NCBI GenBank assembly: GCA_938034905.1
Contig: CALHLF010000055.1
Location: 1-34,397 of the forward strand
Reading direction: 5' to 3'
DNA: 34,397 nucleotides
Source: an uncultured bacterium
GTDB taxonomy: Bacteria > Dictyoglomota > Dictyoglomia > Dictyoglomales > Dictyoglomaceae
Numbering within the stretch: position 1 is the first letter of the stretch; each line of letters begins with the position of its first letter. Positions 20,744 through 26,408 of this stretch are shown here, one piece after another. The notes beneath the pieces were generated by a model that was given only the letters and a program-made list of their open reading frames with translations, did no database searches and had not been told where the DNA came from. Position numbers and translations under genes: made by a program.

Positions 20744-21802
20744 ATGTTTGGTCAAAGGTTTTTAGTCTTTCTGTTGGTTCTGTTTTTTGTTTTCCTTTTA
20801 AATTTCGAAGGGAATTTAAAGGCTATAGAGATTCCATCACTTAAAGAGGTTTATAAAGATTATTTTCTTATTGGAGCTGCAGTTAGTCACAATAGCATAT
20901 ATACTTATGAAGAATTATTAAAAAAACATTTCAATAGTTTAACTCCTGAAAACCAAATGAAGTGGGAATTGATTCATCCAGCTTTATACAAATACAATTT
21001 TGATGATGCAGATCAAATTGTAGAGTTTGCAATCAAGAATGGAATGAAGGTAAGGGGTCATACTTTGGTTTGGCATCAACAAACTCCTCCTTGGGTATTT
21101 GCTGGCACCAAAGAGGAAGTGTTGGCAAGATTGAAAGATCACATTAAAGAAGTTGTAGGACATTATAAGGGAAAGGTTTATGCTTGGGATGTAGTCAATG
21201 AGGCTCTCTCTGATAATCCTGTTGAATTTTTAAGAAAAGCTCCTTGGTATGACATTTGTGGAGAAGAGGTTATTGAGAAAGCCTTTATCTGGGCCCATGA
21301 GGTAGATCCAAATGCAAAATTATTCTACAATGACTATAACTTGGAAGACCCTATAAAGAGAGAAAAAGCCTACAAATTAGTTAAGAAACTTAAAGATAAA
21401 GGAGTACCCATTCATGGTATAGGAATTCAGGGACACTGGACTCTAAATTGGCCTACCCCAAAAATGTTGGAAGATTCTATTAAAAGATTCTCCGAATTAG
21501 GTGTAGAAATTCATATAACTGAATTTGATATTTCTATTTATTATGATAGATATGAAAATAACAATTTCAAAATACCTCCAGAAGATAGAATTGAAAGGCA
21601 AGCTCAAATTTACAAGGAAGCTTTTGCTATTCTAAGAAAATACAAAGATTTGGTAACTAATGTAACTTTTTGGGGGGTTGCAGACGATTATACTTGGCTC
21701 TATTTCTGGCCTGTAAGGGGAAGAGAAGATTATCCATTACTTTTTGATAAGAATCATCAGCCTAAAAAAGCCTTTTGGGAAATTATAAAATTTGGAAAAT
21801 AA
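20744..21802 (+). CDS. xynA: Secreted GH10 endo-1,4-beta-xylanase
   Basis: A 352-residue family 10 xylanase. I chose ATG 20744 because AAAGGAGATG lies just upstream and the N-terminus becomes a signal peptide (hydrophobic 6-19, cleavage probably after A27 in N-L-K-A); an in-frame TTG at 20711 would spoil it. The catalytic acid/base is Glu153 (W-D-V-V-N-E-A-L) and the nucleophile Glu260 (H-I-T-E-F-D-I), with the conserved H-T-L-V-W-H-Q-Q block at about 106-113. No carbohydrate-binding module follows; it is a bare catalytic domain. The length and form fit the XynA I recall from Dictyoglomus thermophilum. It is followed by an exported PsbP-like protein in the same transcript. Confidence 0.92.
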   Translation: MFGQRFLVFLLVLFFVFLLNFEGNLKAIEIPSLKEVYKDYFLIGAAVSHNSIYTYEELLKKHFNSLTPENQMKWELIHPALYKYNFDDADQIVEFAIKNGMKVRGHTLVWHQQTPPWVFAGTKEEVLARLKDHIKEVVGHYKGKVYAWDVVNEALSDNPVEFLRKAPWYDICGEEVIEKAFIWAHEVDPNAKLFYNDYNLEDPIKREKAYKLVKKLKDKGVPIHGIGIQGHWTLNWPTPKMLEDSIKRFSELGVEIHITEFDISIYYDRYENNNFKIPPEDRIERQAQIYKEAFAILRKYKDLVTNVTFWGVADDYTWLYFWPVRGREDYPLLFDKNHQPKKAFWEIIKFGK

Positions 21803-21824
21803 AAATTTAAAAGGAGGTAGTCTT

Positions 21825-22352
21825 ATGAAAAAAGCTTTTACACGAAGTCTAAGTATATTCTTAATTCTTTTGGTAGTTTCTTTCACTATATCTTATGCTG
21901 ATGCCCAAAGGTATGTAGATAAAAACTTTGGATTTTCCATCACTCCGCCAGATGGCTGGGAAATCAAAGATGGAAGACCATATAAAGTAGCAATAATCTT
22001 TATTGGACCTATGGAGGGAGGTTTTAGGGTCAATTTTAATATAAATGTTGTAGCTGTGCCTGGAGTGACTAATATTGATGATGATCTCATCTCTGAAATA
22101 AAGAAGGCATTAGAAACTTCAATAGGAATAGTCGACTTTATCTCTGAAGGAGAGATAAAAGTTTCAAAATATGAAGGTTATGAAATTACATATATTATAG
22201 AATTTGCTGAAGATTTATTTTTAATGCAGAAGCAAATTTACGTAATCAACAATGGAAAAGCTTATATTTTTACCTTTACTTCTTCAGAAGAAACTTCTGA
22301 AAAATATCTTCCTTTATTTGAAGAGAGTTTAAAATCCTTTGAAATATTATAA
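21825..22352 (+). CDS. Exported PsbP-like protein
   Basis: A 175-residue protein started at ATG 21825, which has AAGGAGG 7 bases upstream. It begins with a signal peptide (hydrophobic about 9-22, S-Y-A-D-A then Q-R-Y-V-D). The mature part opens F-G-F-S-I-T-P-P-D-G-W-E, the hallmark of the PsbP/DUF1795 fold, and ends with the L-F-E-E-S-L-K-S-F pattern typical of that family. In non-photosynthetic bacteria these are extracytoplasmic proteins of unclear function. It lies 22 bases after xynA and before the shared terminator, so it is probably co-expressed with the xylanase; whether it helps xylan use is unknown. Confidence 0.82.
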   Translation: MKKAFTRSLSIFLILLVVSFTISYADAQRYVDKNFGFSITPPDGWEIKDGRPYKVAIIFIGPMEGGFRVNFNINVVAVPGVTNIDDDLISEIKKALETSIGIVDFISEGEIKVSKYEGYEITYIIEFAEDLFLMQKQIYVINNGKAYIFTFTSSEETSEKYLPLFEESLKSFEIL

Positions 22353-22595: not shown

Positions 22596-23090
22596 CTATC
22601 TTACATTTAATCTTCCTAAAAGTGTATTAATACAATCATTTACTGCTCCTTTTATCACCGAGCTACCTGAAACAAAATCTCCGAAAAACCACATACCTTT
22701 TTTTATAGCCCCTGTCTGGTCAAATATTAATTCATTTCCTAACATATCATAAACTCTTATAGCTACTATTGCCTCTCCCTCAACAGTGGTAAGTGGAACA
22801 ATAGGCCATATAGGAAGCAATATAATCAACCAGTTAAATTCTCTCCTACTACTAGCACTTATTATATTCATATCTAACATATAATCTGCATTTTCCCTTT
22901 GATACACTATCTCAAATCCTAATACTTTAAGTTTATTAATAAGATAAGCCTTTGCTGGTTCAATTAATTCTCCATTTACACTGTTTACTCTGTTGATATA
23001 TACCTTGTTTTTTATTTGAGTAAAACCTAAGTTAACAAAAAAGAAAACTATAAACATGAGAATAATAAATTTTTTAAAGTAACCCTTCAC
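22596..23090 (-). CDS. Unknown exported protein
   Basis: A 164-residue protein with a GTG start (23088-23090) and a strong AAGGAGG 8 bases upstream. Residues about 7-24 form a signal peptide ending L-G-F-T-Q, with no lipobox cysteine. The mature part has predicted mixed strands (K-V-Y-I-N-R-V-N-S, E-A-I-V-A-I-R-V-Y-D) and a hydrophobic patch at about 88-98 (W-L-I-I-L-L-P-I-W-P) that could touch a membrane. The layout, a pair of helix-strand halves with an adenine-rich transcript of its own, reminds me of small envelope proteins but matches no family I can name. It is monocistronic, closed by the GC-rich hairpin. Confidence 0.7.
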   Translation of the reverse strand: MKGYFKKFIILMFIVFFFVNLGFTQIKNKVYINRVNSVNGELIEPAKAYLINKLKVLGFEIVYQRENADYMLDMNIISASSRREFNWLIILLPIWPIVPLTTVEGEAIVAIRVYDMLGNELIFDQTGAIKKGMWFFGDFVSGSSVIKGAVNDCINTLLGRLNVR

Positions 23091-23236: not shown

Positions 23237-23265
23237 TTCACTAATCTCTAATTTCATGATAAAAT
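23237..23265 (+). promoter_or_regulatory. Predicted promoter of the glp-type operon
   Basis: TTCACT (23237-23242), a 17-base spacer and TAAAAT (23260-23265), with an upstream TG (23257-23258) giving an extended -10. The predicted start near 23272 falls about 5 bases before the first stem of the attenuator, which supports both calls. Confidence 0.5.
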
Positions 23266-23276
23266 AAATTAGAATT

Positions 23277-23340
23277 TAGGGCGAAGGAGAAGTTGGAGAA
23301 ACCGCCCTACCTTTTAAGGTAGGTGCGGTTTTTTCTTTTT
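23277..23340 (+). promoter_or_regulatory. Transcription attenuator: antiterminator stem and intrinsic terminator
   Basis: Two mutually exclusive hairpins precede the glpA-like gene. Stem 1: TAGGGCG (23277-23283) pairs with CGCCCTA (23303-23309) around a 19-base purine-rich loop that holds GGAGAA twice (23286-23291, 23295-23300). Stem 2: AAACCGC plus CCTACCTT (23299-23313) pairs with AAGGTAGG and GCGGTTT (23316-23331, one bulged T), followed by TTTTTTCTTTTT: a textbook intrinsic terminator of 15 pairs. Stem 1 uses bases of the terminator's left arm, so forming it would let transcription continue. By analogy with GlpP-controlled glp leaders in Bacillus an RNA-binding antiterminator could act here; I do not recognise a known riboswitch. 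Confidence 0.75.
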
Positions 23341-23360
23341 ATTAGGAAAGGAGGCTAATC

Positions 23361-24815
23361 ATGGATGTAATTATTATTGGGGGAGGAATTGTGGGAACTT
23401 TAATTGCAAGACAATTATCCTTCTATTCTCTAAGAATTCTCCTTTTAGAGAAGGAAAGTGATATTGCCATGGGAGCTACTAAAGCAAATAGTGGAATCGT
23501 TCATGCTGGTTATGATCCTTTGCCAAATACTAATAAAGCTAAAACAAATGTCAGAGGAAATAAATTATACCCTGAACTTTGTTCTCAATTAAAGGTTCCC
23601 TTTAAGAGAAATGGTGCCTTTGTTTTAGCTTTTAATGACGAAGAAATAAAGATATTAGAAGAATTGAAGGAGAGGGGAAGGATAAATGGAGTCTTAGGAT
23701 TAGAGATAATATCGAAGGAAGAGCTCTTAAAAAGAGAACCTAATATAAATCCAGAGGTAAAGAGGGCACTTTATGTTCCCAATTCAGGAATAACTTCACC
23801 CTATCTTTTAGCAATTTCTGCCTTAGAAAACGCATGGGAGAATGGTGTAGAAGTCCATTTAGAGGAGGAAGTTCAAGGAGTAATAAAAGAAAAAGGAGGA
23901 TACATAGTAAAAACCAATAAAAATTCTTATTTTACAAAATATATTATAAACTGTGCTGGGATTAATGGAGATGAAATTATAAAAATGGCAGGAATAGACT
24001 TTTCCTTTGAAATAACTCCAAGAAAGGGAGAATATTTTGTTTTAGATAAAAAGATGGGAAACTTAGTCTCCTCTACTATATTTCCTACTCCTACCCCCTT
24101 AGGAAAAGGAATTCTCGTAATTCCTACAGTAGAAGGAAATATTCTTTTGGGACCTAATGCCCAAAATATAAATGATAAGGAGGATAAAACTACAACTCAT
24201 GAAGGGCTTAAGGAGGTATGGGAAAAAGCTACAAAATTAGTCCCAAATATTCCCTTTTCCTCTGTAATAAATACCTTTGCAGGGATAAGAGCAAGTAGCA
24301 ATTACAAAGACTTTCTAATAGAGGAGTTTAATTCCCATAAAGGAATTTTAAATATTTTAGGAATAGACTCACCAGGACTTACCTCTGCACCAGCTTTAGC
24401 AGAGATTGCGGAAGAATGGCTAAGGGAAAAAGAAAAGTTAATTCCCAAAAAGGAAGCTAAAAAGGAGAGGGAAAAAACTTTATATTTTAGAGAATTAACT
24501 AATGAGGAGAGGGAAGAACTTATAAAAAGGAATCCAAAATGGGGACACATAGTCTGTAGGTGTGAACATGTGAGTGAGATGGAGATAATAGAATTTATAA
24601 GACATCCATTAACCCCAAAAACCTTAGAAGCATTAAGAAAAAGATTAAGGGTAGGGACCGGAAGATGTCATGGTGCCTTTTGTACACCCCATATTTTAAA
24701 AATTCTTTCTAAAGAATTAGGAAAACCTATGAATTCTTTTACATTAAAGGGAGGAAATTCTAAAATTCTTTTTGGAGAAAATAAGGTGAGGTGGAAAAAT
24801 GAAAAAGGAAGTTGA
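23361..24815 (+). CDS. GlpA-like FAD-dependent glycerol-3-phosphate dehydrogenase with BFD-type [2Fe-2S] domain
   Basis: A 484-residue flavoprotein. The N-terminus has the FAD-binding G-G-G-I-V-G motif and a DAO-type fold (M-G-A-T-K-A-N-S-G-I-V-H, as in GlpA/GlpD). The C-terminal 90 residues carry four cysteines, Cys399, Cys401, Cys436 and Cys441 (C-R-C and R-C-H-G-A-F-C), the BFD-like [2Fe-2S] domain. Followed by an FAD/NAD oxidoreductase and a DUF1667 protein, it matches the three-gene anaerobic glycerol-3-phosphate oxidation operon known from Thermotoga and Firmicutes; the product is dihydroxyacetone phosphate. The ATG has AAAGGAGG 6 bases upstream, just after the attenuator's T-run. No glycerol kinase or facilitator is in the window. 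Confidence 0.85.
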   Translation: MDVIIIGGGIVGTLIARQLSFYSLRILLLEKESDIAMGATKANSGIVHAGYDPLPNTNKAKTNVRGNKLYPELCSQLKVPFKRNGAFVLAFNDEEIKILEELKERGRINGVLGLEIISKEELLKREPNINPEVKRALYVPNSGITSPYLLAISALENAWENGVEVHLEEEVQGVIKEKGGYIVKTNKNSYFTKYIINCAGINGDEIIKMAGIDFSFEITPRKGEYFVLDKKMGNLVSSTIFPTPTPLGKGILVIPTVEGNILLGPNAQNINDKEDKTTTHEGLKEVWEKATKLVPNIPFSSVINTFAGIRASSNYKDFLIEEFNSHKGILNILGIDSPGLTSAPALAEIAEEWLREKEKLIPKKEAKKEREKTLYFRELTNEEREELIKRNPKWGHIVCRCEHVSEMEIIEFIRHPLTPKTLEALRKRLRVGTGRCHGAFCTPHILKILSKELGKPMNSFTLKGGNSKILFGENKVRWKNEKGS

Positions 24816-26052
24816 TATAGCAGTGATAGGGGGAGGTCCAGGAGGATTAGCAGGAGCTTTTTCTGCAGGAAAAAGAGGCCTAAAGGTTCTTATTTTGGAA
24901 AGAGGAGAGGAATTAGGAGGAATATTAAATCAATGCATTCACCCTGGATTTGGCCTTTTATATTTTAAAGAGGAGCTAACAGGACCTGAATATGCAGAGA
25001 GATGGATAAAAATGGTTGAGGAATTAGATAATATAGAGATATGGACAAAAACTATGGTTTTGGAAGTATCTCCTGATAAAAGGATCTTAGCAGTAAATGA
25101 GAAGGGATTATGGGAGATAAAAGCGAAAGCTATTATATTTTCCATGGGATGTAGGGAGAGAACTCAAGGAAATTTAGCAATTCCAGGAACAAGACCTTCT
25201 GGAATTTTTACTGCAGGGACTGCTCAAAGATTTGTAAATATAGAAGGCTATCTTCCTGGGGAAAAAATTCTTATTTTAGGCTCTGGAGATATAGGATTGA
25301 TAATGGCAAGAAGATTAAGATGGGAAGGAGCAGAGGTTATTGGGGTGGTAGAAAAGCTTCCTTATCCTGGGGGTTTAACAAGAAACTTAGTTCAATGTTT
25401 AGAAGACTATGATATTCCTCTATACTTAAGTCATACAGTTGTAGAAATTAAGGGAAAAGAGAGATTAGAAGGAGTATATATTGCTCCTGTAGATGATAAA
25501 GGGAATCCTATATTGGAAAATAAAAAGTATATTTCTTGTGATACTCTACTTTTATCCGTGGGATTAATTCCAGAAAATGAGTTATCAGAGATGGCTGAGA
25601 TTCCATTGGATGGAAAAACAGGAGGACCCTTTGTGGATCAATTTTTAATGACAGAAAAGGAAGGATTTTTTGCTTGTGGTAATGTTTTATTAGTAAATGA
25701 CTTAGTAGATTATGTAAGTCTACAGGGGTTATTAGCAGGAGAATCAGCAGAAAAATATTTAAAAGGAGAAATAAAAAGGGAAAAGAAACTCCCTGTAAAA
25801 ATTAATGGAAATTTAAGGTTAGTAGTTCCCCAATATTTATCTTACCCTATAATTTTACCTGAGATAACCTTTTATTTTAGAGTATTAAATCCAAAGGAAA
25901 ATTCTATTCTCTATCTTAAAGAGAAAGAAAAAATATTAAAAACTTGGAAATATCCTATGGTAAAACCGGCTGAAATGCTTGTTATAAAAGTAAGTTCAAG
26001 TATATTAGAGAATGTGGAAGAGATTAATTTTGTTTTGGAGGGTTCAAAATGA
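24799..26052 (+). CDS. FAD/NAD(P)-dependent oxidoreductase of the glp-type operon
   Basis: A 417-residue pyridine-nucleotide-disulfide-oxidoreductase-fold protein. It has an N-terminal FAD motif (G-G-G-P-G-G-L-A-G-A), a second nucleotide motif (G-S-G-D-I-G, about 157-162) and a third conserved block (F-F-A-C-G-N-V). In the family it takes electrons from the GlpA-like subunit to an acceptor. It overlaps the glpA-like gene by 17 bases and the DUF1667 gene by 4, as expected for a stable complex translated together. It has no CxxC redox pair of the thioredoxin-reductase type that I can see. Confidence 0.85.
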   Translation: MKKEVDIAVIGGGPGGLAGAFSAGKRGLKVLILERGEELGGILNQCIHPGFGLLYFKEELTGPEYAERWIKMVEELDNIEIWTKTMVLEVSPDKRILAVNEKGLWEIKAKAIIFSMGCRERTQGNLAIPGTRPSGIFTAGTAQRFVNIEGYLPGEKILILGSGDIGLIMARRLRWEGAEVIGVVEKLPYPGGLTRNLVQCLEDYDIPLYLSHTVVEIKGKERLEGVYIAPVDDKGNPILENKKYISCDTLLLSVGLIPENELSEMAEIPLDGKTGGPFVDQFLMTEKEGFFACGNVLLVNDLVDYVSLQGLLAGESAEKYLKGEIKREKKLPVKINGNLRLVVPQYLSYPIILPEITFYFRVLNPKENSILYLKEKEKILKTWKYPMVKPAEMLVIKVSSSILENVEEINFVLEGSK

Positions 26053-26408
26053 AGAAATTAACATGTATTGTCTGTCCCCTAAGCTGTAGTTTATTTATAG
26101 AAGAAAAAGAAGAATTAAAAATTACAGGAAATAAATGCGAGAGGGGAATTAAGTATGCAAAAGAAGAGATAAGAAATCCAAAGAGAGTATTAACAACAAC
26201 AGTTAAGATAAAGGATGGTATATATCCTGTTATTCCTGTAAGAACATCAAAACCTATTCCCAAGGATTATATATTTCCCCTTCTCAAGAAGCTTTCAGAA
26301 GTGGAATTGACTGCTCCTATCCCTTCAGGATATAAAGTCTTGGAAAACATATTTAATTTGGGAATAGATGTTATAACTACCAGAGAAATGAAAAAACTTA
26401 ATAAGTAA
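26049..26408 (+). CDS. DUF1667 protein (glp-type operon)
   Basis: A 119-residue protein with an N-terminal cysteine set C-I-V-C-P-L-S-C (6-13) plus a later cysteine (N-K-C-E-R-G), likely to hold an Fe-S cluster or zinc. DUF1667 proteins regularly accompany the two flavoproteins upstream and are thought to be a small electron-transfer subunit. The start overlaps the upstream stop by 4 bases. The 3' end overlaps the convergent kinase gene by 11 bases, with no ordinary terminator between them. Confidence 0.85.
   Translation: MKKLTCIVCPLSCSLFIEEKEELKITGNKCERGIKYAKEEIRNPKRVLTTTVKIKDGIYPVIPVRTSKPIPKDYIFPLLKKLSEVELTAPIPSGYKVLENIFNLGIDVITTREMKKLNK

Follow-up and report, generated by a model that had tools for sequence, protein, structure and literature searches.

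The window analysed here, the whole 34,397-nucleotide (nt) stretch of contig CALHLF010000055.1 from an uncultured bacterium of the family Dictyoglomaceae (assembly GCA_938034905.1), carries on its forward strand an operon of a glpA-like, a glpB-like and a DUF1667 gene. Its leader, which spans a promoter-like site to the glpA-like ATG at 23361, very probably acts, judging from its sequence, as a GlpP-type transcription antitermination switch of glpA-glpB-DUF1667. The glpA-like protein, a flavin adenine dinucleotide (FAD) oxidoreductase, scores 324 bits against the NCBIfam model of type 2 glycerol-3-phosphate oxidase, under the cut-off of 460, and is a probable glycerol-3-phosphate dehydrogenase/oxidase; the downstream genes are assigned to glycerol or glycerol-3-phosphate metabolism by homology, with no NCBIfam equivalog cut-off reached. 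The promoter call ahead of the leader is plausible (Table 1), and relatives carry TGCTATAAT or TGTTATAAT at the equivalent site, a short distance 5' of the stem described below. The upstream neighbour gene (22596-23090) lies on the opposite strand and the nearest forward-strand gene upstream (21792-22352) ends about 950 nt before the leader, so the leader terminator serves no upstream gene.

The leader can fold into two hairpins. The first, the antiterminator, has an exact stem of 7 base pairs (bp), 23277-23283 with 23303-23309, and a fold energy of -10.3 kcal/mol (23272-23310). The second is an intrinsic terminator with a fold energy of -21.1 kcal/mol (23299-23340), which is followed by TTTTTTCTTTTT and sits just 5' of the AAAGGAGG ribosome site. 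Because both folds use 23303-23309, they cannot coexist. When the growing transcript was folded, the first hairpin appeared at about 23310 and the switch to the terminator came at about 23328; the leader folded better than 200 of 200 dinucleotide shuffles (z = -3.55). Given how much more stable the terminator is than the first hairpin, the default state would be off and a protein would be needed to turn the operon on, which fits induction by glycerol-3-phosphate. An earlier note on this DNA had proposed a leader attenuator with exclusive hairpins, and the folds bear this out, including its 7-pair stem that has bases in common with the left arm of the terminator. The terminator itself had been given 15 pairs, which is close: the fold has 14 pairs and a bulge, or as many as 18 pairs when the A/U ends are included. 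The placing of the transcription start about 5 bases before the first stem is plausible too, since the extended -10 predicts a start near 23272.

Table 1. Features of the glpA-like leader and operon (window coordinates).
Feature	Position	Strand	Basis
Promoter-like site: TTCACT, 17 nt, TAAAAT with TG extension	23237-23265	+	consensus scan, prediction
Extended -10 TGATAAAAT (TGA-TAAAAT)	23257-23265	+	consensus scan
Predicted transcription start, about 7 nt past the -10	23271-23273 (near 23272)	+	inferred from -10 position
Antiterminator stem, left strand TAGGGCG	23277-23283	+	fold; GGGCG kept in relatives or replaced together with its partner
Purine-rich loop AAGGAGAAGUUGGAGAAAC, proposed GlpP contact site	23284-23302	+	conserved across differing stems, in Bacilli and in four phylum-level groups besides, one of them the window's own
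First GGAGA repeat	23286-23290	+	sequence; conserved as (G/A)GAGA
Second GGAGA repeat	23295-23299	+	sequence; conserved as (G/A)GAGA
Intrinsic terminator hairpin (14 pairs, a single one-base bulge)	23299-23331	+	fold; core found by terminator scan
Switch strand CGCCCTA: antiterminator right strand and part of terminator left arm	23303-23309	+	folds
Terminator T-run, overlapping the end of the right arm	23328-23339	+	sequence
Ribosome binding site AAAGGAGG	23347-23354	+	sequence
glpA-like FAD oxidoreductase (DAO and BFD [2Fe-2S] domains)	23361-24815	+	Pfam DAO 228 bits, Fer2_BFD
glpB-like FAD/NAD(P) (nicotinamide adenine dinucleotide (phosphate)) oxidoreductase, same operon	24799-26052	+	Pfam Pyr_redox_2 102 bits
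DUF1667 protein, last gene of the operon	26049-26408	+	Pfam PF07892 101 bits

The loop of the first hairpin contains the pentamer GGAGA twice (GGAGA-AGUU-GGAGA), 9 nt apart, the spacing that the earlier note gave for GGAGAA. Since the bare repeat is not specific (GGAGAA-N2-4-GGAGAA occurs 12 times in the window's genome, the reversed pattern five times), stem and terminator were required in the genome search. Only the window copy among the 12 has an enclosing stem and an overlapping terminator, and a search of the rest of the genome found no duplicate of the complete leader.

To follow the leader through related genomes, we searched for the glpA-like protein in 31 genomes. The window's family is represented by seven genomes, and in every one the element lies 5' of the glpA-like operon. 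Four of these belong to a sister genus (protein 63-66% identical) and show GGGCG-A-GGAGA-N3-5-GGAGA-AC-CGCCC, and the CGCCC strand goes on to form part of a terminator. The window's own genus contributes two more genomes (G001 and G002), whose operon protein is only about 50% identical to that of the window; here GUGUGG/CCACAC replaces GGGCG/CGCCC and the GGAGA...GGAGA loop is kept, and both genomes have a further copy of the element 5' of glpK, with a GGCC...GGCC stem and the same loop, one copy carrying AGAGA as its second repeat. Both strands of the stem differ between these genomes and the loop stays fixed, and it was to compensatory changes in relatives' leaders that the earlier note had looked for a test.

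Pairing was then assessed in 46 non-redundant leaders, chosen for having the loop repeat, a T-run and a glp-like gene behind them; a stem was not among the requirements. The flanks scored 10.87, compared with 7.90 +/- 0.37 in a control that swaps right flanks between leaders and leaves shared ancestry in place, and none of 2,000 shuffles scored as high; the non-Bacilli leaders alone reached 15.3 against 9.19 +/- 1.27 in the flank-swapped control. Each of the first six stem pairs occurs as four standard pair types among 18 elements outside Bacilli. Flank permutation was used rather than a covariance model because the stem registers of the MAFFT-aligned leaders differ by 0-5 nt.

The GlpP protein is present in the same genome. 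A homologue (PF04309, glycerol-3-phosphate responsive antiterminator; 215.9 bits) is encoded on another contig (G000:C10:94217-94738) and matches the solved GlpP structures 3kts (4e-33) and 1vkf. GlpP was found in all seven genomes of the family but in only 11 of the 241 genomes sampled. To cover Bacilli, named genomes were scanned with a GlpP alignment, which yielded 80 neighbourhoods. The leaders of glpP, glpF, glpK and glpD in many of these Bacilli have the form stem-GGAGA-N3-GGAGA-stem', with a terminator beginning in stem'; the genera concerned include Paenibacillus, Lentibacillus, Terribacillus, Fictibacillus, Metabacillus, Rossellomorea, Pontibacillus and Oceanobacillus. In Listeria, no glp structural genes adjoin glpP in the four loci checked. 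More generally, a stem, a (G/A)GAGA-N2-6-(G/A)GAGA loop and an overlapping terminator precede glpF, glpK, glpD, glpP or glpA in Bacilli and in three further phylum-level groups: in the G028 phylum the element stands before glpF/glpK with (G/A)GAGA repeats, in the G147 phylum before glpP, and in the G198 phylum at glp operon starts in eight of the ten GlpP-positive genomes checked. It is absent from the upstream stretches of two GlpP-negative genomes of the G198 phylum and from the surroundings of the glpK genes of GlpP-negative genomes (0 of 16). Directly upstream of glpK the pattern matched in only 3 of 14 GlpP-positive loci, a low share explained by glpK often being an internal gene of its operon, and the search moved on to operon starts.

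These results can be set against the known system. In Bacillus subtilis, the promoters of glpD, glpT and glpFK each come with a site for GlpP binding and with a terminator located in the 5' untranslated region (UTR) (PMC9604022), and GlpP, on binding glycerol-3-phosphate, activates the three transcription units by disrupting the leader terminator (PMC9604022; PMC7430163). Passages in PMC9604022 and PMC3997798 credit this antitermination to Glatz 1996, 1998 and Darbon 2002. The window has the same arrangement of a housekeeping-type promoter, then a 5' UTR terminator, then a glycerol gene, with GlpP encoded in the genome, and its stem and GGAGA-N-GGAGA loop are common to the glp leaders of many other Bacilli. 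Compared with the Bacilli leaders, the window stem is longer and richer in GC (7 bp versus about 4-5) and an upstream AAGTTAATA box is missing; unlike the B. subtilis targets, the leader would control a glpA-glpB-DUF1667 operon. We favour GlpP-dependent antitermination because the window leader has every testable sequence feature of the B. subtilis system.

Under GlpP control, RNA polymerase would start near 23272. Without glycerol-3-phosphate, the weak first hairpin would give way to the strong terminator and transcription would stop before the operon. Accumulating glycerol-3-phosphate would be bound by GlpP, which may then recognise the GGAGA-AGUU-GGAGA loop closed by the 7-bp stem and hold the hairpin; with the left arm of the terminator occupied, glpA-glpB-DUF1667 would be transcribed. 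The presence of GlpP in the genome, and an element that tracks GlpP genes across phyla, support two suggestions of the earlier note, that the loop is a site for a protein or ligand and that a GlpP-type protein is the nearest precedent.

Its statement that no known riboswitch class is recognisable also agrees with our Rfam searches: at the gathering threshold there was no family in the window or at the elements of seven related loci, and none at a permissive threshold, where L31-Firmicutes came closest (26.1 bits, against a gathering score of 33.3). The idea of a new class of RNA switch did not hold: although absent from Rfam, the leader matches glp leaders of Bacilli, where GlpP antitermination is established by experiment. 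The sub-threshold L31-Firmicutes match, at 23246-23289, covers the promoter and the start of the stem and is probably due to chance.

Other explanations of the same hairpins fare worse. That the first hairpin is itself the receptor of glycerol-3-phosphate or some other metabolite, as a true riboswitch acting with no protein, is very unlikely; the compact, conserved purine loop directly before a terminator and the metabolite-linked operon would suit it, but an aptamer made of a single short hairpin and a 19-nt loop would be small, the element goes with the GlpP gene and is absent from the GlpP-negative loci tested, and it is GlpP that acts on such leaders in B. subtilis (PMC9604022). Still less probable is antitermination by another RNA-binding protein. 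The loop does contain GAG triplets and related architectures exist (PMC7430163): LicT/SacY (BglG-type) targets share the protein-stabilised hairpin overlapping a terminator and the induction by substrate, and HutP and TRAP targets share purine triplet repeats bound by a metabolite-binding protein. LicT/SacY RNAs, however, have internal bulges and no GGAGA loop, and their protein is unrelated and controlled by phosphorylation; HutP and TRAP sites consist of many clustered NAG or GAG repeats, whereas the window has two pentamers in one hairpin loop, and the element is found together with GlpP and with glp genes.

We give almost no weight to ribosome-mediated attenuation through a tiny leader peptide. 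A UUG at 23293, which follows AAGGAG, could open a short frame (L E K P P Y L L R stop), but the gap between the two is only 3 nt, the frame is not kept among relatives because the spacing in their loops ranges from 2 to 5 nt, and there is no run of codons for the product of the pathway. Just as improbable is an ordinary terminator or a set of chance hairpins with no regulatory role. The abundance of the bare repeat in the genome would allow for coincidence, but no upstream gene needs termination, and the element is conserved at glp genes across phyla with compensating stems.

Several observations nevertheless weigh against GlpP control of this leader or loosen the comparison behind it. The loop was compared with the glp leaders of Bacilli other than B. 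subtilis 168, and many stems in Bacilli have only 4 bp. The inner 5-bp stem is identical in the five closest leaders, the covariation coming from more distant sequences. In the G198 phylum the pattern had no match at operon starts in two of the ten GlpP-positive genomes, and no such leader was found before glpK in the window's genome.

The element in this group is apparently undescribed, whereas GlpP control itself is already known, mainly from Bacillus. The shared loop and covarying stem provide a defined candidate RNA target of GlpP in several phyla; GlpP regulons become predictable from loop and stem, contact between GlpP and RNA could be tested on a hairpin cut down to about 33 nt, and a new Rfam entry would be justified. 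More tentatively, and at somewhat less than an even chance, the bipartite (G/A)GAGA-N2-6-(G/A)GAGA loop could be a cross-phylum recognition code of GlpP, not described as an RNA family; each of the two pentamers might be the contact of one subunit in a GlpP oligomer.

Some further features of these loci deserve mention. The glpA-like protein of the window matches the sister genus more closely than its own genus, which suggests an old swap of paralogues or horizontal transfer of the operon together with its leader. In G001 and G002, the elements before glpK and before the glpA-like gene lie about 1.6 kilobases (kb) apart (L035:6121 and 7712, minus strand; L037, L164); the sister genus, like the window's genome, lacks an element 5' of glpK. 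Many Bacilli glp leaders have the AAGTTAATA box conserved just 5' of the element stem (e.g. L132:9860-9925 and L129:12075-12140), perhaps with a role in the 5' end or stability of the mRNA; the leaders of the window's family do not contain it. In many Paenibacillus genomes (L072-L132) glpP itself is preceded by the element, which suggests that GlpP may autoregulate its own gene there. Finally, a number of genomes from one family of the G198 phylum have two oppositely oriented GlpP genes at a distance of about 4 kb (G279:C1:1447642 and 1451642; also G269, G272, G283 and G295), one of each pair being of a lower-scoring type, and a second GlpP specificity is possible.
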